From positions 1 to 33,202 of the forward strand of contig JAGXHE010000182.1 of the NCBI GenBank assembly GCA_024636445.1: a stretch of 33,202 nt of DNA. The letters are read 5' to 3'. Every line of letters begins with the position of its first letter. Positions within the stretch are counted from its first letter, which is position 1. Below are positions 16,592-26,209 of this stretch, in pieces. The stretch is from Sulfitobacter sp. GTDB lineage: Bacteria > Pseudomonadota > Alphaproteobacteria > Rhodobacterales > Rhodobacteraceae. Under the pieces are notes generated by a model. That model saw nothing but the letters and a program-made list of their open reading frames with translations. It did no database searches and was not told the origin of the DNA. The position numbers and the translations under genes are program-made.

Positions 16592-19102
16592 TCAGCCCTG
16601 CGGCATCTTCAAGACCAGGTTGCGTCCGCCTTTTTGATAGAGCAGTTCGCTTTCGCCGATGGCCGACACGCGGCCTCCGTCGATGCTGTCACCGACCTGT
16701 ACCTTTTGATAGCGTCCGTTCGACAGCCGCACCAGCGCACGGCGTGACGAGGGTTTGCCATAGACGCCGATCAGATTGACCTTGCGCAGATTGATGGCCT
16801 TGCTGATCGTCGCCTCGCGTTGGACGCTGGTTTTTGACGGAATTCTGGGCGCTACCGTCACCGGTGCTGTGGTGGCCGGTGCAGGGGCCACGGCTGCGGT
16901 CTGGGTTTGCGCAGGCTCGGCCGCACGGGCACGCGCGACGGTACGGTCAAAGTTATTGGGCCGTACCGTCGGGCGGAACGACAATGTTGCGGCCTGCGCG
17001 GTCGGGACTTCGTCTTTTTCTTCTTCGATCTTGGCCACGGCAGGGCGCAGTTGCGGGCGCACTTCAGCCAGCTCGTTGCGGGTCCGGCCGCCCAGATTGG
17101 CCCGCTCAGTGGTCTCGATCAGATCGCCGGGGCGCGCACGTGGACGGGCGCGTGCCAGCCGGTCAAGCTCGGGGTTCACTTCGGGTGTTTCGGCAAACCG
17201 TGTGGGCGTCGGCGGCGGGACAACGGCGGGGCGGCCTGCATAAAGTGTCACGCCGTTGGGGGTCTCGGCACCTTCGGGCGTCGGGATAACGCGGCCTGCG
17301 CTGTCCAGCGCAAAACTGGTTCCCGCCGCTGCGGGCGAGGGCATGGCGACCAGGGCAATATCAGTGTCCAGCGCGGCAGGCGCGGGCAGGGCCACTGCAT
17401 CACGGGCGGGGCTGATTGGGTCGATAGATGCGGCATAGAGGTCTTCCAGCGGACCCACCTCCGCGGCTTGTGGCACTTCGGGGGCCAGCGGCCAGATGCC
17501 GGTGACCGCATAGCGCGCTTCGGCAGCCTGACGGATGCGTTCTGGGTCGTTTTCGGTGATGTCTACTGGCGCGGGCTGGGGCTCTGGCTGGGGCAGCGGG
17601 TCGCGCATGGCGTCCAGAACGGCGGCATCTTCATCACTGAGCGCGGGGTCGAAGCTGGCCACTTCCACATCCGCATCGTCTTGCGCATCCGCGCTGTCTT
17701 CGATCTCTTCGGGTTCGGGCAGGATTTCGGGCGGCGCTTCGACCACCACGGGATCTGCCGCACGACCAAAGAAACGCGCCAGACCTTCGTCCATGAAAAC
17801 CGATGCCCAAGCCGCGATACCGGCAAGAAATACCAGCAAGGCCGCAGTCAGTATCAACCCAAAAAACCGAGGCTTGCCGCCGACTTTTACCGGCTCCTTG
17901 CTGCGTGCGCCAAAGACCGTCATGCGCTGCGCTTCGTCTGCGGACGCGGTGGGCTGTGTCGGCGCAGAAGGCGCAGGGGTTGCGGCTGGATTGGTGCGTT
18001 TGGGCTTGCGGCGGCGACTCATGAAACCGGCGACGCTGGCCTTGGCAATCGCCATCGGGTTTTCGTCGCTGTCCGTATTGGGCTCGGGGTTGGCGGGCGG
18101 TGCCTCCGCTTGGGTGTCGGTTATCGCGTCGGATTGGTCTTTGGACCGTGGTGTGATTCGCGGCGCGCTGGACGGTGCCGAGCCGGCAACGACGGCGGGT
18201 GCTGAGCGCACAGGCGGCGTCTCTGCGCGATTGGCTCCACCAAGTGCGGGCGGATTTCTGTCAGACGTGCGGCGGGTGGAAAAACCGAAATCAGCCGGGG
18301 GCGGTGTGTCTGCCGCGTCACCCTTTTTGTCGGTCTCTTTGGTCTTGAGGTCTGCCTTCGGCGCTGGCGTTTCAGACTCCATTGCCGGGGCAGGGTCCAC
18401 TTTGGATGTGACTGCGGAAGCGTCTTCGTCGGATTTGGCTTCTGATTCTGGGTCTGGCTCTGCTTCCGGCTCGGGTGTTTCCACGACCGCAACCTGATCC
18501 TCAACCGCAACGGGCGTATCACCCGCAGTCGCAACCGGACCTTTCGGCGTCTTGATGTCGCCAATCACCACGACCGCGATTCCGTCTGGCGTTACGCTGT
18601 CGCCCTGCTCAAGCAGATCGGCGGCGTGGCTGGTCACCCCCAGAAACGGCTCGCCCAGAAATCCGGCCTCGCCGGGGATCGACACAAAACTGACCGGGTG
18701 AAACCGGTGCAGCATCGCGAACTCTTCCGCCTCGTTCAGCGTTTCACGGGCAACGGCGGCCACATGGGTCTGCGCCCCGTCGGCGCATATATCGACGCTC
18801 AGATCGTCCACCGCATAGGGCGTCGCCCCTTCGAGCGCTGCAAAGGCGGCGGACCAGCGGCCATCCTCATCCACATTGCCACTTTCGACGGTCAGATAGC
18901 GGATCTGCTCGTCTGGAATGATCAACTTGCTGCGCACACCGCGCGGCTCGAGATCAGAGGCTGTCTTGCGCAAGGCAGCCAGTTCTGCGGCCATGTCTTC
19001 TGCTGCCAGCGACACTTCGCCGACCACGCGCCAGCCACCCGCAGCGCGATGCAGCAGGCGAATGCCGTCAAAAGACAGGCTGAGCGCGAAATTCGGCTTC
19101 AT
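16592..19102 (-). CDS. Large single-pass membrane protein: N-terminal PilM/GspL-like domain, Pro/Ala/Glu-rich linkers, TM helix, C-terminal PilP/GspC-like domain
   Basis: N-term MKPNFALSLSFDGIRLLHR...RSKLIIPDEQIRYLTVES...AAFAALEGATPYAVDDLSVDI; TM FFGLILTAALLVFLAGIAAWASVFM; C-term INLRKVNLIGVYGKPSSRRALVRLSNGRYQKVQVGDSIDGGRVSAIGESELLYQKGGRNLVLKMP. Confidence 0.8.
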   Translation of the reverse strand: MKPNFALSLSFDGIRLLHRAAGGWRVVGEVSLAAEDMAAELAALRKTASDLEPRGVRSKLIIPDEQIRYLTVESGNVDEDGRWSAAFAALEGATPYAVDDLSVDICADGAQTHVAAVARETLNEAEEFAMLHRFHPVSFVSIPGEAGFLGEPFLGVTSHAADLLEQGDSVTPDGIAVVVIGDIKTPKGPVATAGDTPVAVEDQVAVVETPEPEAEPDPESEAKSDEDASAVTSKVDPAPAMESETPAPKADLKTKETDKKGDAADTPPPADFGFSTRRTSDRNPPALGGANRAETPPVRSAPAVVAGSAPSSAPRITPRSKDQSDAITDTQAEAPPANPEPNTDSDENPMAIAKASVAGFMSRRRKPKRTNPAATPAPSAPTQPTASADEAQRMTVFGARSKEPVKVGGKPRFFGLILTAALLVFLAGIAAWASVFMDEGLARFFGRAADPVVVEAPPEILPEPEEIEDSADAQDDADVEVASFDPALSDEDAAVLDAMRDPLPQPEPQPAPVDITENDPERIRQAAEARYAVTGIWPLAPEVPQAAEVGPLEDLYAASIDPISPARDAVALPAPAALDTDIALVAMPSPAAAGTSFALDSAGRVIPTPEGAETPNGVTLYAGRPAVVPPPTPTRFAETPEVNPELDRLARARPRARPGDLIETTERANLGGRTRNELAEVRPQLRPAVAKIEEEKDEVPTAQAATLSFRPTVRPNNFDRTVARARAAEPAQTQTAAVAPAPATTAPVTVAPRIPSKTSVQREATISKAINLRKVNLIGVYGKPSSRRALVRLSNGRYQKVQVGDSIDGGRVSAIGESELLYQKGGRNLVLKMPQG

Positions 19103-21439: not shown

Positions 21440-22441
21440 TCAGCGCATCCAGAAGCCTTCGGACTTGATCCGGTTGCGGATCGCCTGTTCGCGGCGGGGC
21501 AGGTTGTCTTGATCAAATAGCGCGCGCACCTTTTCGCCGCGCCCCTGATAGACCATGCGCTTGATCGGGTCGTAATTCTTCAGCACTTTTTTCAGCTTGT
21601 TGGGGGCCGCGACCTCTTCCAGCGTGGCGACCACCCGGTCGGCCTCGCGCGCATAGAGCAGCGGCAGCATCCGGTAATGGCAGCTGACCGTATCGTCCAG
21701 CAGACCCATGGGCAGCGTGTCGCGCCCGCCGCCTAGGCTGTGGATCACCAGCGGCAGGGCAATCTGGTCCAGCCAGGGGTCCATCTCCTGACAGCACAGC
21801 TCGACCGGGGTGTCGTCGCGGATCGCCAGCGCATATTCGCGGAACTTGTCGCCAAAGACACGCGGGCATTTGTAGAAGAAATAACCAGCGTTGAAGTAAA
21901 GATAACGGGCCCAGTATTCATCGGGCTCGGCCAAGTCCATGCTGGACGCGAAATCCAAGGAGAACTTGTCATAAAGCGATTTCCAGATGCCCGCATAGAC
22001 GGGGCCGTAAAGCTCCGGCTTGGGCCACGTGCCGGTGCGCCGCAGCGATGCCGAGGGGCGTTCGAAATCGAACGGCACCGATGTCAGATCGCCGGTGATC
22101 AGCGTATCGGTGTCGAAGAACACAAAAGGCGCACCTTCGGGCAGGGCGCTCAGCATCTCGATCTTGTTGCCATAGGGATAGGCCGCACCGAAATGCGCGC
22201 TGTGAAACGGCACGATCTCGGCGCCCAGCTCTTCCAAAGCTCCGCGCACGTCGGCTTTGAGGCGGGGATCGTTTGGCCACAATGGTCCGGGCTGCGGTTC
22301 GGCCACCATCAGCCGGCCTTTGAAATCGGGGCTATGATGCCGCAAGGAGGCCGCGAACAGGATCGCCTCATAGCCCAGACGACCGGATTGGCCGACGACC
22401 ACGACGTTGTAATCCGGTGTTTTTGCGGGTTTGCGTGCCAT
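21440..22441 (-). CDS. Hypothetical protein, glycosyltransferase-like (GT-A type DxD-like motif)
   Basis: Intact 333-aa ORF; GAPFVFFDTDTLITGDL resembles the nucleotide-sugar DxD region of GT8-like proteins; YLYFNAGYFFYKCPRVFGDKFREY. Confidence 0.6.
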   Translation of the reverse strand: MARKPAKTPDYNVVVVGQSGRLGYEAILFAASLRHHSPDFKGRLMVAEPQPGPLWPNDPRLKADVRGALEELGAEIVPFHSAHFGAAYPYGNKIEMLSALPEGAPFVFFDTDTLITGDLTSVPFDFERPSASLRRTGTWPKPELYGPVYAGIWKSLYDKFSLDFASSMDLAEPDEYWARYLYFNAGYFFYKCPRVFGDKFREYALAIRDDTPVELCCQEMDPWLDQIALPLVIHSLGGGRDTLPMGLLDDTVSCHYRMLPLLYAREADRVVATLEEVAAPNKLKKVLKNYDPIKRMVYQGRGEKVRALFDQDNLPRREQAIRNRIKSEGFWMR

Positions 22442-22606: not shown

Positions 22607-25600
22607 TCAGGTGCTGACGTAGCCCGCAACCACCTGCAACAGCTTGAACGCGGTGGTCGCGTCGTTTTCCACCACGGCCAAAAACTCCTCGACGCCGATG
22701 CGCAGGCAAAGCAGATCGGTTTTGGCCTGCATATCAAGCGCGCGCGGCTCGTTGCGGATCAGACCCAGCTCGCCCACCAGCGCGCCTGCGCCCACCGTGG
22801 TGATCAACTGCGCCGCCTTGTCCGCATGGGGCAGCCACAGATCCGCCTGACCCTCGAGGATCATATAGGCTCCATCCGCAGGCGGATCGTTCTTGTGAAA
22901 GACGTATTCGCCAGCCGGGCAGCGATACCAGCGCGCCCCGAAAGCCAGCAGCCGCAACTGTTTGCGCGATACGCCCGAAAACAGATCGGTCGACCCCAGC
23001 GCCTGCACCTTGCGCGCCAGATCGGCGCTGGTGGCACTGTCGTCCTTGGCCGATTGCGGGCCCGCACCGCCGACGATCCGACCGTCCAGCAGTTCCAGCT
23101 GCATGTCGAAGGCATCTGGGTGTTCAAAACTGGCGGCAATAAAAATCAGCGTGGTTTCGGGCAGCAACACGCGCAGGTTGGCAAACATCGCGTCCTGCGT
23201 CGCGGCATCGAAACTGGCCAGAACGTCTTCGAGGATCAGGATATCGGGCCGTTTGATCGCCGCACGGCTGACGGCGGCAGGTTCGGCGTAGAACGCGGGC
23301 AGATTGGCGCCCCCCAATGCAATCGGCACATCCAGGATCAGCCGCATCACCTCGCGGCCCATTCCGCTCAGCTGCATGACCTGCGCCACCTTGGCGCGCA
23401 CCTCGTCGCCCTTGGACCCGGCCCCGTTCGGGATCTTACCGAACAGCGCGTTTTCCAGCACGGTCAGACCGGCCACGATCTTGCCCACGCGGATCGGGGC
23501 AAAAGCCGCCCCCAGGCTGGCCTGCAACGCCTCGGCGTGCAGTCCGCGCATGTCCAGCACGCGCGCCTTGATCTCGTCGGGAAAACCCGCGCCAATCTGG
23601 TCAGAGGTGATCTGGAACGGCACCGTCAGCAGCAGCGCGGTGTCTTCGGTTGTAAGCGCGGTGCCCTCGCGCTGCCGCGACAGGATGGCGACGGCGGCCT
23701 CGTAGGTCTCGGCTTCGAGCGTGAGCTTGCGAAACAGCGGGTGATCGGTGCCGTCGATGCCAAAGATCTGGCGCAACAGGTCGATCACGTCACGGGTCAG
23801 CGCCAGCAGATCGCGGTCCAGCCCCAGCTTGGCCAGCAGTTTTAGAAATTCAGGCTGGCCTGCGATGAATTCTGGCGTCACCGGCTGGCGAGCCGTCGCG
23901 AACAACAGGTTTTCGGCGACGGGCAGGGCGGCGTTATAGGCATCCTCGCGGAAAATATCGGCGTAGCGGATCAGATCGGCCTCTTCCAGCGCTGCAGCCA
24001 CGTCGCCGCGCAGGTCCACCAGACGCTGCGCCAGTTCCGGCTGGCCGGTCGCGTCGATGCGTTGCTCGGTCGCGCGCCGGAACAGGGCGGCGCTGCTGCC
24101 CATGCCGTCGACCAGCGCCAGCCACCAGTCCAGCAGCGCGTCGTCGTCCTGCGTGCCCGACCGCGCAAGGTCCATCCAGGGCGCATCCAGCATGTCGGCA
24201 CTGTTGCCTGCACGCAGGGCTTCGGCCGCGAAATCGGCATCGCTGCCATCGCCGTGGGGCTGATGTTTCAGCGCCATCATGATGTTGTCGCCAAAGCTGC
24301 CCTGAAACATCACCGGACGCGACGTGGCATGGCCGATGCGGGCCGCGATCACGCCCTGATGCAGATCGTTCAACGCATGGTCACCCAGACGCACCCGCCC
24401 GCTGGTCGGCATCGTCTCGCGGGTCAATACCTGCGCCAGCGCGCGGCGGTCCTCGTCGCTGGGCGCCGTGATGGCAATACTGCGGCCCGCGGGCAGGGTG
24501 GCGGTGATATCCTCGAGCACCGCATTGCCATCACCGTCACGCACGGTCACCCCGTCCAGCACCACATCGCCGTCCAGATGCGGCAGGCTGTCGGGCTGGC
24601 CGTAGAACTTATCCTCGTCGATCATGCCTGTCGGCGCGAACCGCTCGGCGATGGTTTCCCAGCGCAGCTGCATGTCCTGCGACTGGTTGTAATAGTCCAG
24701 CAGCTCTTTCCACGGGCTCGACAGGTCTTTGTAGGCCGCCAGGGCGGCCACCAGCGCCCCAAGGCTGACCTGACCTTGGATGACCAGATAGCCACCGATC
24801 GAGAAGAAGAAGAACGGCGTCAGCTGGGTGATGAAGTTATTGAGAAACTTCATGAAGAATTTCTTCTGGTAGATGTCGAAGCGGATCTCGTAGAGCCGCC
24901 CCAGCCGGTCGGTGATCATCGCCATCCGAAACCGCCAGCCGCCGTTGACGCGCAAGGTAGCCGCCCCCGATGCACTCTCTCCGATCTCGGCGGCCAGCGC
25001 GCGCACTTGCACCACGCGTTTCTTGTTCAGCAGGTTGATCTGCTTTTGCAACTTGGGGATCAGCCAAGCCTGCAATGGGATCAGCGCACAGGCGGCAAGT
25101 CCAAAGGTCACGGACTGGGCGAACAGAAAGCCCAGGATCGTCAGCATCTGACCCGCCTGCAACACCGGCTGCGCCATCGCGTCGCCCATCAGCCCGCCCA
25201 TCGGTTCGCTTTCGGATGTGACCATGCTGACCAGCTCGCCCTGCGAGGTCCGCTCGAAATAAGGCTGCGGAAACCGCAGTATACGCGAAATCAGCCCATA
25301 GCGATAGCGCCGCAACAACCGTTCGGCCAGAACGCCCTTCATCGTGTTGATGCGCATCTTGAGCAGCCCGTGCAGGATCACCGCCAGCAAGAACAGCCCG
25401 CACAGGATCAGCAGGAAATGGATCTGCGAAAAGGTCGCACCATAGAACTCAACGGTGTCCGAAGGCGCTGCGATGGCGTCGTTGATGATCCGCTTGGGCA
25501 GTTCCAGCGTCAGATAAAGCATCGGAAACAGCGTCAGCGTGACCAGCAGCAGAATAAATTGATCACGCTTGGAATGCTTGAAGATAAAGCTGAAGATGCT

Positions 25601-25621
25601 GCGTTCTATCGGGCTGTCCAG
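22607..25621 (-). CDS. ABC transporter-like protein (TMD + highly divergent NBD) with C-terminal cyclic nucleotide-binding domain
   Basis: TM region SIFSFIFKHSKRDQFILLLVTLTLFPMLYLTLELPKRIINDAI...; NBD scaffold VVLDGVTVRDGDGNAVLEDITATLPAGRSIAIT...DILILEDVLASFD; C-term FSGVSRKQLRLLAFGARWYRCPAGEYVFHKNDPPADGAYMILEGQADLW...GALVGELGLIRNEPRALDMQAKTDLLCLRI. 5' end uncertain: ORF track starts at 25522, but homologous-looking sequence extends to a CTG at 25621. Confidence 0.82.
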   Translation of the reverse strand: MDSPIERSIFSFIFKHSKRDQFILLLVTLTLFPMLYLTLELPKRIINDAIAAPSDTVEFYGATFSQIHFLLILCGLFLLAVILHGLLKMRINTMKGVLAERLLRRYRYGLISRILRFPQPYFERTSQGELVSMVTSESEPMGGLMGDAMAQPVLQAGQMLTILGFLFAQSVTFGLAACALIPLQAWLIPKLQKQINLLNKKRVVQVRALAAEIGESASGAATLRVNGGWRFRMAMITDRLGRLYEIRFDIYQKKFFMKFLNNFITQLTPFFFFSIGGYLVIQGQVSLGALVAALAAYKDLSSPWKELLDYYNQSQDMQLRWETIAERFAPTGMIDEDKFYGQPDSLPHLDGDVVLDGVTVRDGDGNAVLEDITATLPAGRSIAITAPSDEDRRALAQVLTRETMPTSGRVRLGDHALNDLHQGVIAARIGHATSRPVMFQGSFGDNIMMALKHQPHGDGSDADFAAEALRAGNSADMLDAPWMDLARSGTQDDDALLDWWLALVDGMGSSAALFRRATEQRIDATGQPELAQRLVDLRGDVAAALEEADLIRYADIFREDAYNAALPVAENLLFATARQPVTPEFIAGQPEFLKLLAKLGLDRDLLALTRDVIDLLRQIFGIDGTDHPLFRKLTLEAETYEAAVAILSRQREGTALTTEDTALLLTVPFQITSDQIGAGFPDEIKARVLDMRGLHAEALQASLGAAFAPIRVGKIVAGLTVLENALFGKIPNGAGSKGDEVRAKVAQVMQLSGMGREVMRLILDVPIALGGANLPAFYAEPAAVSRAAIKRPDILILEDVLASFDAATQDAMFANLRVLLPETTLIFIAASFEHPDAFDMQLELLDGRIVGGAGPQSAKDDSATSADLARKVQALGSTDLFSGVSRKQLRLLAFGARWYRCPAGEYVFHKNDPPADGAYMILEGQADLWLPHADKAAQLITTVGAGALVGELGLIRNEPRALDMQAKTDLLCLRIGVEEFLAVVENDATTAFKLLQVVAGYVST

Positions 25622-25822
25622 ACGTGGTCATGGGCGCGGGGCCCGCCGTGGGCCTGCGCGGTACTGGCATCAACCTAGCAAGGCGTGCGCGCGTCCGGCA
25701 ATGCCTATTGCGTAAGGGCTGCGACGATTACGATCTTTGCGCGCGTGAGCGATGGACGAAGCGCAAACAACGCTCTAGGCTTTCTACATCCACAGAAGAA
25801 GTCCACAGGAGAAGACGGCCCT

Positions 25823-26209
25823 TTGACCGCCACCGCGACCACCTTGCTGATCCTGCTTTTTCTGCTTCAGATCAAGCACATGTTTGCCGATTACTTCTGG
25901 CAGACATCCCGGATGCTGTGTGACCGGGGCCGCTATGTGCACATGGGACGCGCGCAGCACGCAGGCCTTCATGCGCTGGGCTCGGCGCTGGCGTTTTTGA
26001 TCGTTGGGGCCCCGGTCCCGCTGGTGCTGGCGATCATATTTGCCGAGTGGGTCGCGCACTACCACATCGACTGGGCCAAGGGGCGCTGGTCCGACCGGAC
26101 CGGCGACACCCCCACAGACGCCGGCTACTGGCGCGCCATGGGCGTCGATCAGGCGCTGCACCAGCTGACCTATCTGGCAATGGTATGGGCCTGGGTCGGC
26201 TACGGCTGA
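25823..26209 (+). CDS. DUF3307 domain-containing membrane protein
   Basis: LLILLFLLQIKHMFADYFWQTSRMLCDRGRYVHMGRAQHAGLHALGSALAFLI; likely TTG start at 25823 with AGGAGAAG upstream. Confidence 0.8.
   Translation: MTATATTLLILLFLLQIKHMFADYFWQTSRMLCDRGRYVHMGRAQHAGLHALGSALAFLIVGAPVPLVLAIIFAEWVAHYHIDWAKGRWSDRTGDTPTDAGYWRAMGVDQALHQLTYLAMVWAWVGYG

Follow-up and report, generated by a model that had tools for sequence, protein, structure and literature searches.

The window that we analyzed, a stretch of 33,202 nucleotides from Sulfitobacter sp., carries on its minus strand an open reading frame that covers positions 22607-25522 when called from its first ATG and that, when extended, reaches an ATA start at 25609-25607, which gives a minus-strand gene at 22607-25609 encoding 1000 residues. 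The gene belongs to a group of orthologs that we refer to as clade A, and its layout, together with that of its divergent neighbor, is as follows.

22607-25609, minus strand: gene of the clade A pseudo-ABC/cNMP protein, from ATA start to stop, 1000 residues
24632-25609, minus strand: transmembrane domain (PF00664), residues 1-326
24269-24631, minus strand: first half of the pseudo-NBD, residues 327-447
23462-24268, minus strand: helical insertion, residues 448-716, with no PDB or NCBIfam match
23066-23461, minus strand: second half of the pseudo-NBD, residues 717-848
22610-23035, minus strand: cyclic nucleotide-binding (CNB) domain (PF00027), residues 859-1000
25685-26206, plus strand: DUF3307 membrane-protein gene, divergent from the clade A gene; the start of this open reading frame is probably placed too early

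Pfam searches of the window protein returned ABC_membrane (PF00664, 3e-20) and cNMP_binding (PF00027, 6e-17), with no match to ABC_tran (PF00005) at E<=10; the protein of a related group, clade D, does match ABC_tran. The transmembrane domain is the best-conserved portion of the family. In a phmmer comparison with solved exporter structures, residues 41-418 and 728-818 (numbered from the ATG form) aligned with both NBD halves, so the scaffold is an NBD split by about 270 residues. Since the NBD aligns on either side of the insertion, canonical motifs are not concealed elsewhere in the protein; that a Walker A or signature sequence might lie at another position, a possibility raised in the preliminary description, is thereby ruled out. 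An AlphaFold2 monomer model built from 58 orthologs (mean pLDDT 80, pTM 0.68, parts of the membrane domain being of low confidence) has membrane helices of the exporter type and an NBD core; the insertion is helical throughout, and the CNB domain folds as a beta barrel. The best Foldseek matches of the model are ABC exporters, including TmrAB, PCAT1, and TM287/288. By fold and descent, the window protein belongs to the exporter superfamily. The preliminary description, made from the letters alone, had called it an ABC-exporter-like scaffold with apparently destroyed motifs and a C-terminal cNMP-binding domain, and both parts of this description agree with the profile matches, the split NBD alignment, the lack of canonical motifs, and the exporter fold and beta barrel of the model.

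The positions at which the ATPase motifs would be expected read as follows in the window protein.

about 24422-24475, minus strand: pseudo-Walker A, AITAPSDEDRRALAQVLT (also read as AITAPSDEDRRALAQVL, at about 24475-24425), with Arg at the Lys position
23276-23317, minus strand: pseudo-signature, LGGANLPAFYAEPA, with LPAFY where LSGGQ is expected
23204-23242, minus strand: pseudo-Walker B, ILILEDVLASFDA
23114-23149, minus strand: H-loop region, LIFIAASFEHPD, with the switch His missing (IFIAASFEHPD near 23146-23114)

Walker A GxxGxGK(S/T), LSGGQ, the Walker B Glu, and the H-loop His are all missing; by sequence the protein thus fails as a working ABC ATPase, and we classed it as a variant. Our motif census, based on an alignment of 134 relatives, extends this result well beyond the window. 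In the phylogenetic tree, clade D is separated from clades A, B, and C, and each of A and B forms one clade with a support of 100. The Walker A Lys is replaced by Arg in 89/89 clade A orthologs, 10/10 clade B paralogs, and both sequences of the basal clade C (2/2), and no clade A, B, or C sequence in the alignment has the signature Gln or the H-loop His. The degenerate motifs are thus kept in relatives from three clades, and the motif loss is not confined to one copy, which was the other outcome by which the preliminary description could have been refuted. One detail of the preliminary description does not hold across clade A: the ED that it read in place of DE after Walker B is not conserved, its first position being D in 56, E in 26, and N in 7 sequences and its second varying freely.

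The missing motifs of the window copy could also be taken as the mark of a decaying pseudogene or of a copy-specific loss, a reading that we consider hardly credible, given that the frame is open and that about 100 relatives share the losses. Pairwise dN/dS lies between 0.02 and 0.17 in every clade A domain, pseudo-NBD included, far below 1; these values indicate that the dead state is maintained and not decaying, and together with the motif census they refute the pseudogene reading. Judged from this fixed pattern of residues, the ATPase is very probably dead, as the preliminary description had supposed.

Clade D, represented by 27 sequences from other Alphaproteobacteria, has a nearly canonical NBD: the Walker A Lys is retained in 20/27, the signature Gln in 25/27, the Walker B Glu in 16/27, and the H-loop His in 15/27. 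Its Walker A Ser/Thr is replaced by Asp/Glu in 26/27 and its Walker B Asp by Asn/Ser in 21/27, an exchange (e.g., L131-L154) that looks as if the magnesium ligand had shifted between the motifs. The full canonical set is found in no family member examined. These clade D residues, including the acidic and Asn/Ser exchange, favor an ATP-driven exporter that binds ATP and hydrolyzes it slowly by means of unorthodox residues, its cNMP domain being merely regulatory, and an Asp at the Walker B position, retained in many A and all but one B sequences, can be counted on the same side. We consider this alternative unlikely for the window protein, in which ABC_tran has no match and whose clade, like B and C, has lost Lys, signature, and His together and has residue R388 fixed.

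Residues 448-716, about 270 in all, form an insertion between the Q-loop and the signature; the model shows it as almost entirely helical, and it is common to all clades, D included. This agrees with the large, mostly helical insertion of the preliminary description, there put at roughly 300 residues, and the similarity noted there between LPVAENLLFA and LTVLENALFG proves to be a real internal repeat, with one unit inside the insertion and one at its end.

23894-23953, minus strand: repeat unit FREDAYNAALPVAENLLFAT, inside the insertion
23438-23500, minus strand: repeat unit APIRVGKIVAGLTVLENALFG, at the end of the insertion

With hhalign, the repeat gives 34% identity over 56 columns in clade D (E 1.4e-10) and E 2e-6 in clades A-C, E-values that come from direct pairwise comparison and serve as a guide only. 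The second repeat unit of the insertion matches the Q-loop/helical entry that follows, and from this resemblance part of the insertion probably arose by duplication within the NBD. We do not claim a triplication, in which the insertion would hold the signature subdomain three times over in complete form, since significant matching is limited to the second and third repeat units. Modeled alone, the segment gives a model of modest quality (pLDDT 74), and as a known domain it has no NCBIfam match, no convincing PDB sequence relative, and no Foldseek match at E<=0.001.

The C-terminal domain retains the phosphate-binding cassette.

22730-22792, minus strand: phosphate-binding cassette VGELGLIRNEPRALDM, whose Gly, Glu, and Arg do not vary among 58 aligned proteins of clade A

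Its pattern is GEL-x-L-I-R-x-E-P-R-A-L, and the invariant residues are Gly946, Glu947, and Arg956; in every clade B protein examined, Asp replaces the cassette Glu. Of 30 clade D loci, 24 have a cNMP open reading frame directly downstream as a separate gene, often after 4 bases, and 4 have it fused; the fusion in A, B, and C therefore joins genes that were formerly mostly adjacent. Class III cyclases recur in the neighborhoods. A dCache and HAMP class III cyclase adjoins the clade A gene in 15/80 loci from several genera (e.g., L045 5711-7435), and of 20 further genomes, 4 have its ortholog, always immediately upstream of A, and 16 do not; the genome and genus of the window lack it. A different cyclase type lies near clade D in five loci, including a Rhizobium leguminosarum plasmid cluster whose order is cyclase, Dpp-type ABC genes, three glycosyltransferases, clade D gene, and cNMP gene; an S. 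meliloti pSymB locus has a similar gene order, and many clade D loci also contain a cluster of glycosyltransferases, histidine phosphatase, and methyltransferase. These neighborhoods suggest a link from cyclase to cNMP domain in an envelope polymer or glycolipid pathway. The conserved cassette residues and the neighboring cyclases speak for the cyclic-nucleotide sensing proposed in the preliminary description, and cNMP binding by the clade A domain is, as judged from its residues, likely. It is important to consider that CNB domains can take other ligands, as the CNB domain of HetC binds ppGpp (PMC10986499).

The genome of the window also encodes paralog B, with 54% identity, and the A and B genes are not adjacent. 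When A or B was assigned by the best-scoring query in 151 genomes of the family, one per genus, 20 had both, 3 had A only, 1 had B only, and 127 had neither (Fisher p 9e-21, uncorrected for phylogeny, the counts being phylogenetically non-independent). Across the class, the family was found in 131/385 sampled genomes; outside Alphaproteobacteria, we do not accept any member, the single match outside the class among 299 phylum genomes consisting of the membrane domain alone. Relatives of the membrane domain without any NBD exist in the same family (L042 3771-5081, L043 4092-5402, L044 3059-4387, L015 1417-2484, and L016 1072-2337); by eye, those in L042-L044 adjoin a likely multicopper oxidase and other metal-handling genes.

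A heterodimer of A with B is plausible, and we give it about an even chance. Many heterodimers have one degenerate site (PMC7756269), and two exporters of that kind, TmrAB and TM287/288, are among the top structural matches, which lends some weight to a regulatory half-transporter whose partner would be a canonical ABC half-exporter encoded separately, with one degenerate and one active site between them. This arrangement appears rather improbable here, somewhat more so than the ATP-driven exporter: among the loci examined, neither A nor B has a canonical half-exporter as a recurrent neighbor, and the co-occurring B, without Lys, signature, Glu, or His, does not supply the canonical site, so that both composite sites of an A-B pair would be dead.

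Other genes recur beside the family. The DUF3307 gene neighbors clade A in 69/81 loci, and this small membrane protein and the clade A gene likely share a promoter region. A CAAX-type membrane peptidase gene lies directly 3' of clade B in 6/8 loci (L176 12492-13376; L194 7086-7985), and in L194 it overlaps the end of the clade B gene. Within the window, neither of two neighboring minus-strand open reading frames, 21443-22441 (333 aa) and 16595-19102 (836 aa), matches Pfam at E<=0.001; by eye, the first resembles a glycosyltransferase.

At the 5' end of the clade A gene, ahead of the first ATG, lie two further features.

25607-25609, minus strand: proposed start codon ATA, with ATA/ATC in 87/90 orthologous loci
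25617-25619, minus strand: GGA, Shine-Dalgarno-like, with an SD-like triplet in 89/90 orthologous loci

In these 90 loci (the window, L001-L009, L045-L124, L126, and L128, two genomes being counted twice among the clade A loci as L008/L085 and L009/L088), the start codon is ATA in 60, ATC in 27, and ATG in 3, and never ATT, GTG, or TTG. It has changed at least 19 times on the tree, with AUA and AUC interchanging, and GG(G/A) stands 8-11 bases before it in nearly all loci. Paralog B has ATG at the first conserved residue in 9/9 loci, where clade A has ATA or ATC, and elsewhere in the gene the Ile codons are ATC in 75%, ATT in 22%, and ATA in 3%. Two other explanations were rejected. First, an upstream in-frame ATG, GTG, or TTG: between the preceding stop and the ATA/ATC there is none in 47/87 loci, and where present it is unconserved. 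Second, a 5' frameshift or missing base, given an out-of-frame ATG just upstream: the recurrence of the ATA/ATC start in 87/90 loci rules this out. Initiation in clade A would accordingly be placed by these alignments at ATA or ATC. The RefSeq clade A protein of Ruegeria TM1040, the one record checked, starts 17 codons downstream, so a conserved AUA/AUC start means that at least some database proteins are truncated, by 17 residues in this record. The infC gene (IF3) of six genomes of the same family (L208-L213) appears to begin with ATA (three) or ATC (three, the window genome included) when its start is assigned from the conserved N-terminus, and infC and the clade A gene may form part of an IF3-controlled gene set in the family. 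Examples of conserved AUA/AUU starts under modulation by IF3 exist elsewhere (PMC13009471), and Streptomyces sigR has a conserved GUC start (PMC5472188). The pattern in clade A suggests IF3-linked control of the translation of a membrane protein.

The reading that best accommodates these results overall, and to which we give roughly even credence, is a selection-maintained pseudo-ABC membrane protein that is switched by cNMP and not driven by ATP and that works with paralog B. Its exporter-type transmembrane domain would be retained; the NBD would no longer hydrolyze ATP, and probably no longer bind it normally, and would persist as a scaffold for coupling and dimerization, enlarged by the duplicated helical segment. 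The C-terminal domain would bind cyclic nucleotide, and this binding, instead of ATP, would switch the conformation of the membrane domain, which we take as the best single mechanism, still unproven. The most likely partner would be paralog B, which has neither ATP motifs nor the cassette Glu, either as a heterodimer or within one pathway. The ancestral setting was probably an envelope-polymer locus with cyclase and glycosyltransferases, and the AUA/AUC start may keep translation low or IF3-sensitive in the clade A lineage. For this reading speak the motif loss across the clades, the low dN/dS, the invariant cassette residues, the cNMP gene next to or fused with clade D, the cyclases in part of the neighborhoods, the co-occurrence of A and B and the single-clade status of each, the exporter fold of the model, and the relatives without an NBD. 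Against it count that pseudo-ATPases sometimes still bind ATP, the other ligands that CNB domains can take, the separate positions of the A and B genes, the lack of the HAMP cyclase ortholog in the genome and genus of the window, the non-independence of the co-occurrence counts, and the limited confidence of the monomer model. In its complete form, in which cNMP replaces ATP as the driver of the membrane domain, non-hydrolytically, with both halves, A and B, dead and sensing confined to A, at a dosage set by an IF3-sensitive AUA/AUC start, the proposal is tentative and less likely than not.

CFTR is an ABC-fold channel, and C-terminal CNB domains are familiar from other channels; an exporter fold with a fused cNMP domain could form a conduction pathway gated by cyclic nucleotides. 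The preliminary description had suggested such a channel, on which our data are silent, or a scaffold, which is conceivable; the AUA start, paralog B, and clade D with its separate cNMP gene do not figure in it. We hold the conduction pathway to be improbable, the least favored of the functional alternatives weighed here, since our analyses show no pore and the position of clade D beside glycosyltransferases better fits a lipid or polymer flippase than a channel.

Pseudokinases and pseudo-GTPases are well studied, and ABC exporters in which both likely halves are stripped of ATP motifs, under strong selection and with the cNMP sensor kept, are undescribed in the literature that we searched, where we likewise found no description of the window architecture, the rhizobial cluster, or a Rhodobacteraceae homolog, and no report of a conserved weak start in a membrane protein or in the clade A family. 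Ordered from clade D, which is nearly canonical, to the fully dead A and B, the clades form a natural series in which a change from an ATP-driven to a ligand-driven state can be tested directly. The conserved AUA/AUC start adds a surprise that is independent of this and easy to test.

Several known systems share parts of this arrangement. The infC AUU/AUA starts, the AUA of ccpN and AUU of cvfC1 in S. aureus, and the GUC of Streptomyces sigR are likewise weak starts with an SD-like sequence kept in orthologs, whereas clade A swaps AUA and AUC and never uses AUU. Crp/Fnr proteins, after which the separate cNMP gene beside clade D is named, share the CNB fold and the cassette G-E and R, as do PKA and CRP, but in clade A the domain is fused to a membrane protein; the one separate clade D protein analyzed (154 aa) has no DNA-binding domain match in Pfam. 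CNB domains joined to ABC-type membrane regions have been reported as CNB group 16 by Kannan et al. 2007 (PMC2246266), and HetC, which shares this union, has an N-terminal CNB domain and a C39 peptidase and depends on its ATPase (PMC10986499), while the CNB domain of clade A is C-terminal, no peptidase domain is present, and the ATPase motifs are absent. The review of degenerate exporters covers transporters that retain one active site (PMC7756269); the heterodimers TmrAB, TM287/288, and TAP resemble our case in their degenerate NBD and co-occurring paralogous half, but A and B both lack the catalytic motifs, and no canonical site would remain between them. Finally, the ABCB-like or type IV exporters (MsbA, TmrAB, TM287/288, and PCAT1) have the same six-helix membrane domain and NBD scaffold, as seen with PF00664, Foldseek, and phmmer; clade A, unlike them, is without the Walker A Lys, signature, catalytic Glu, and H-loop His and adds a repeat-bearing insertion of about 270 residues and a C-terminal cNMP domain.
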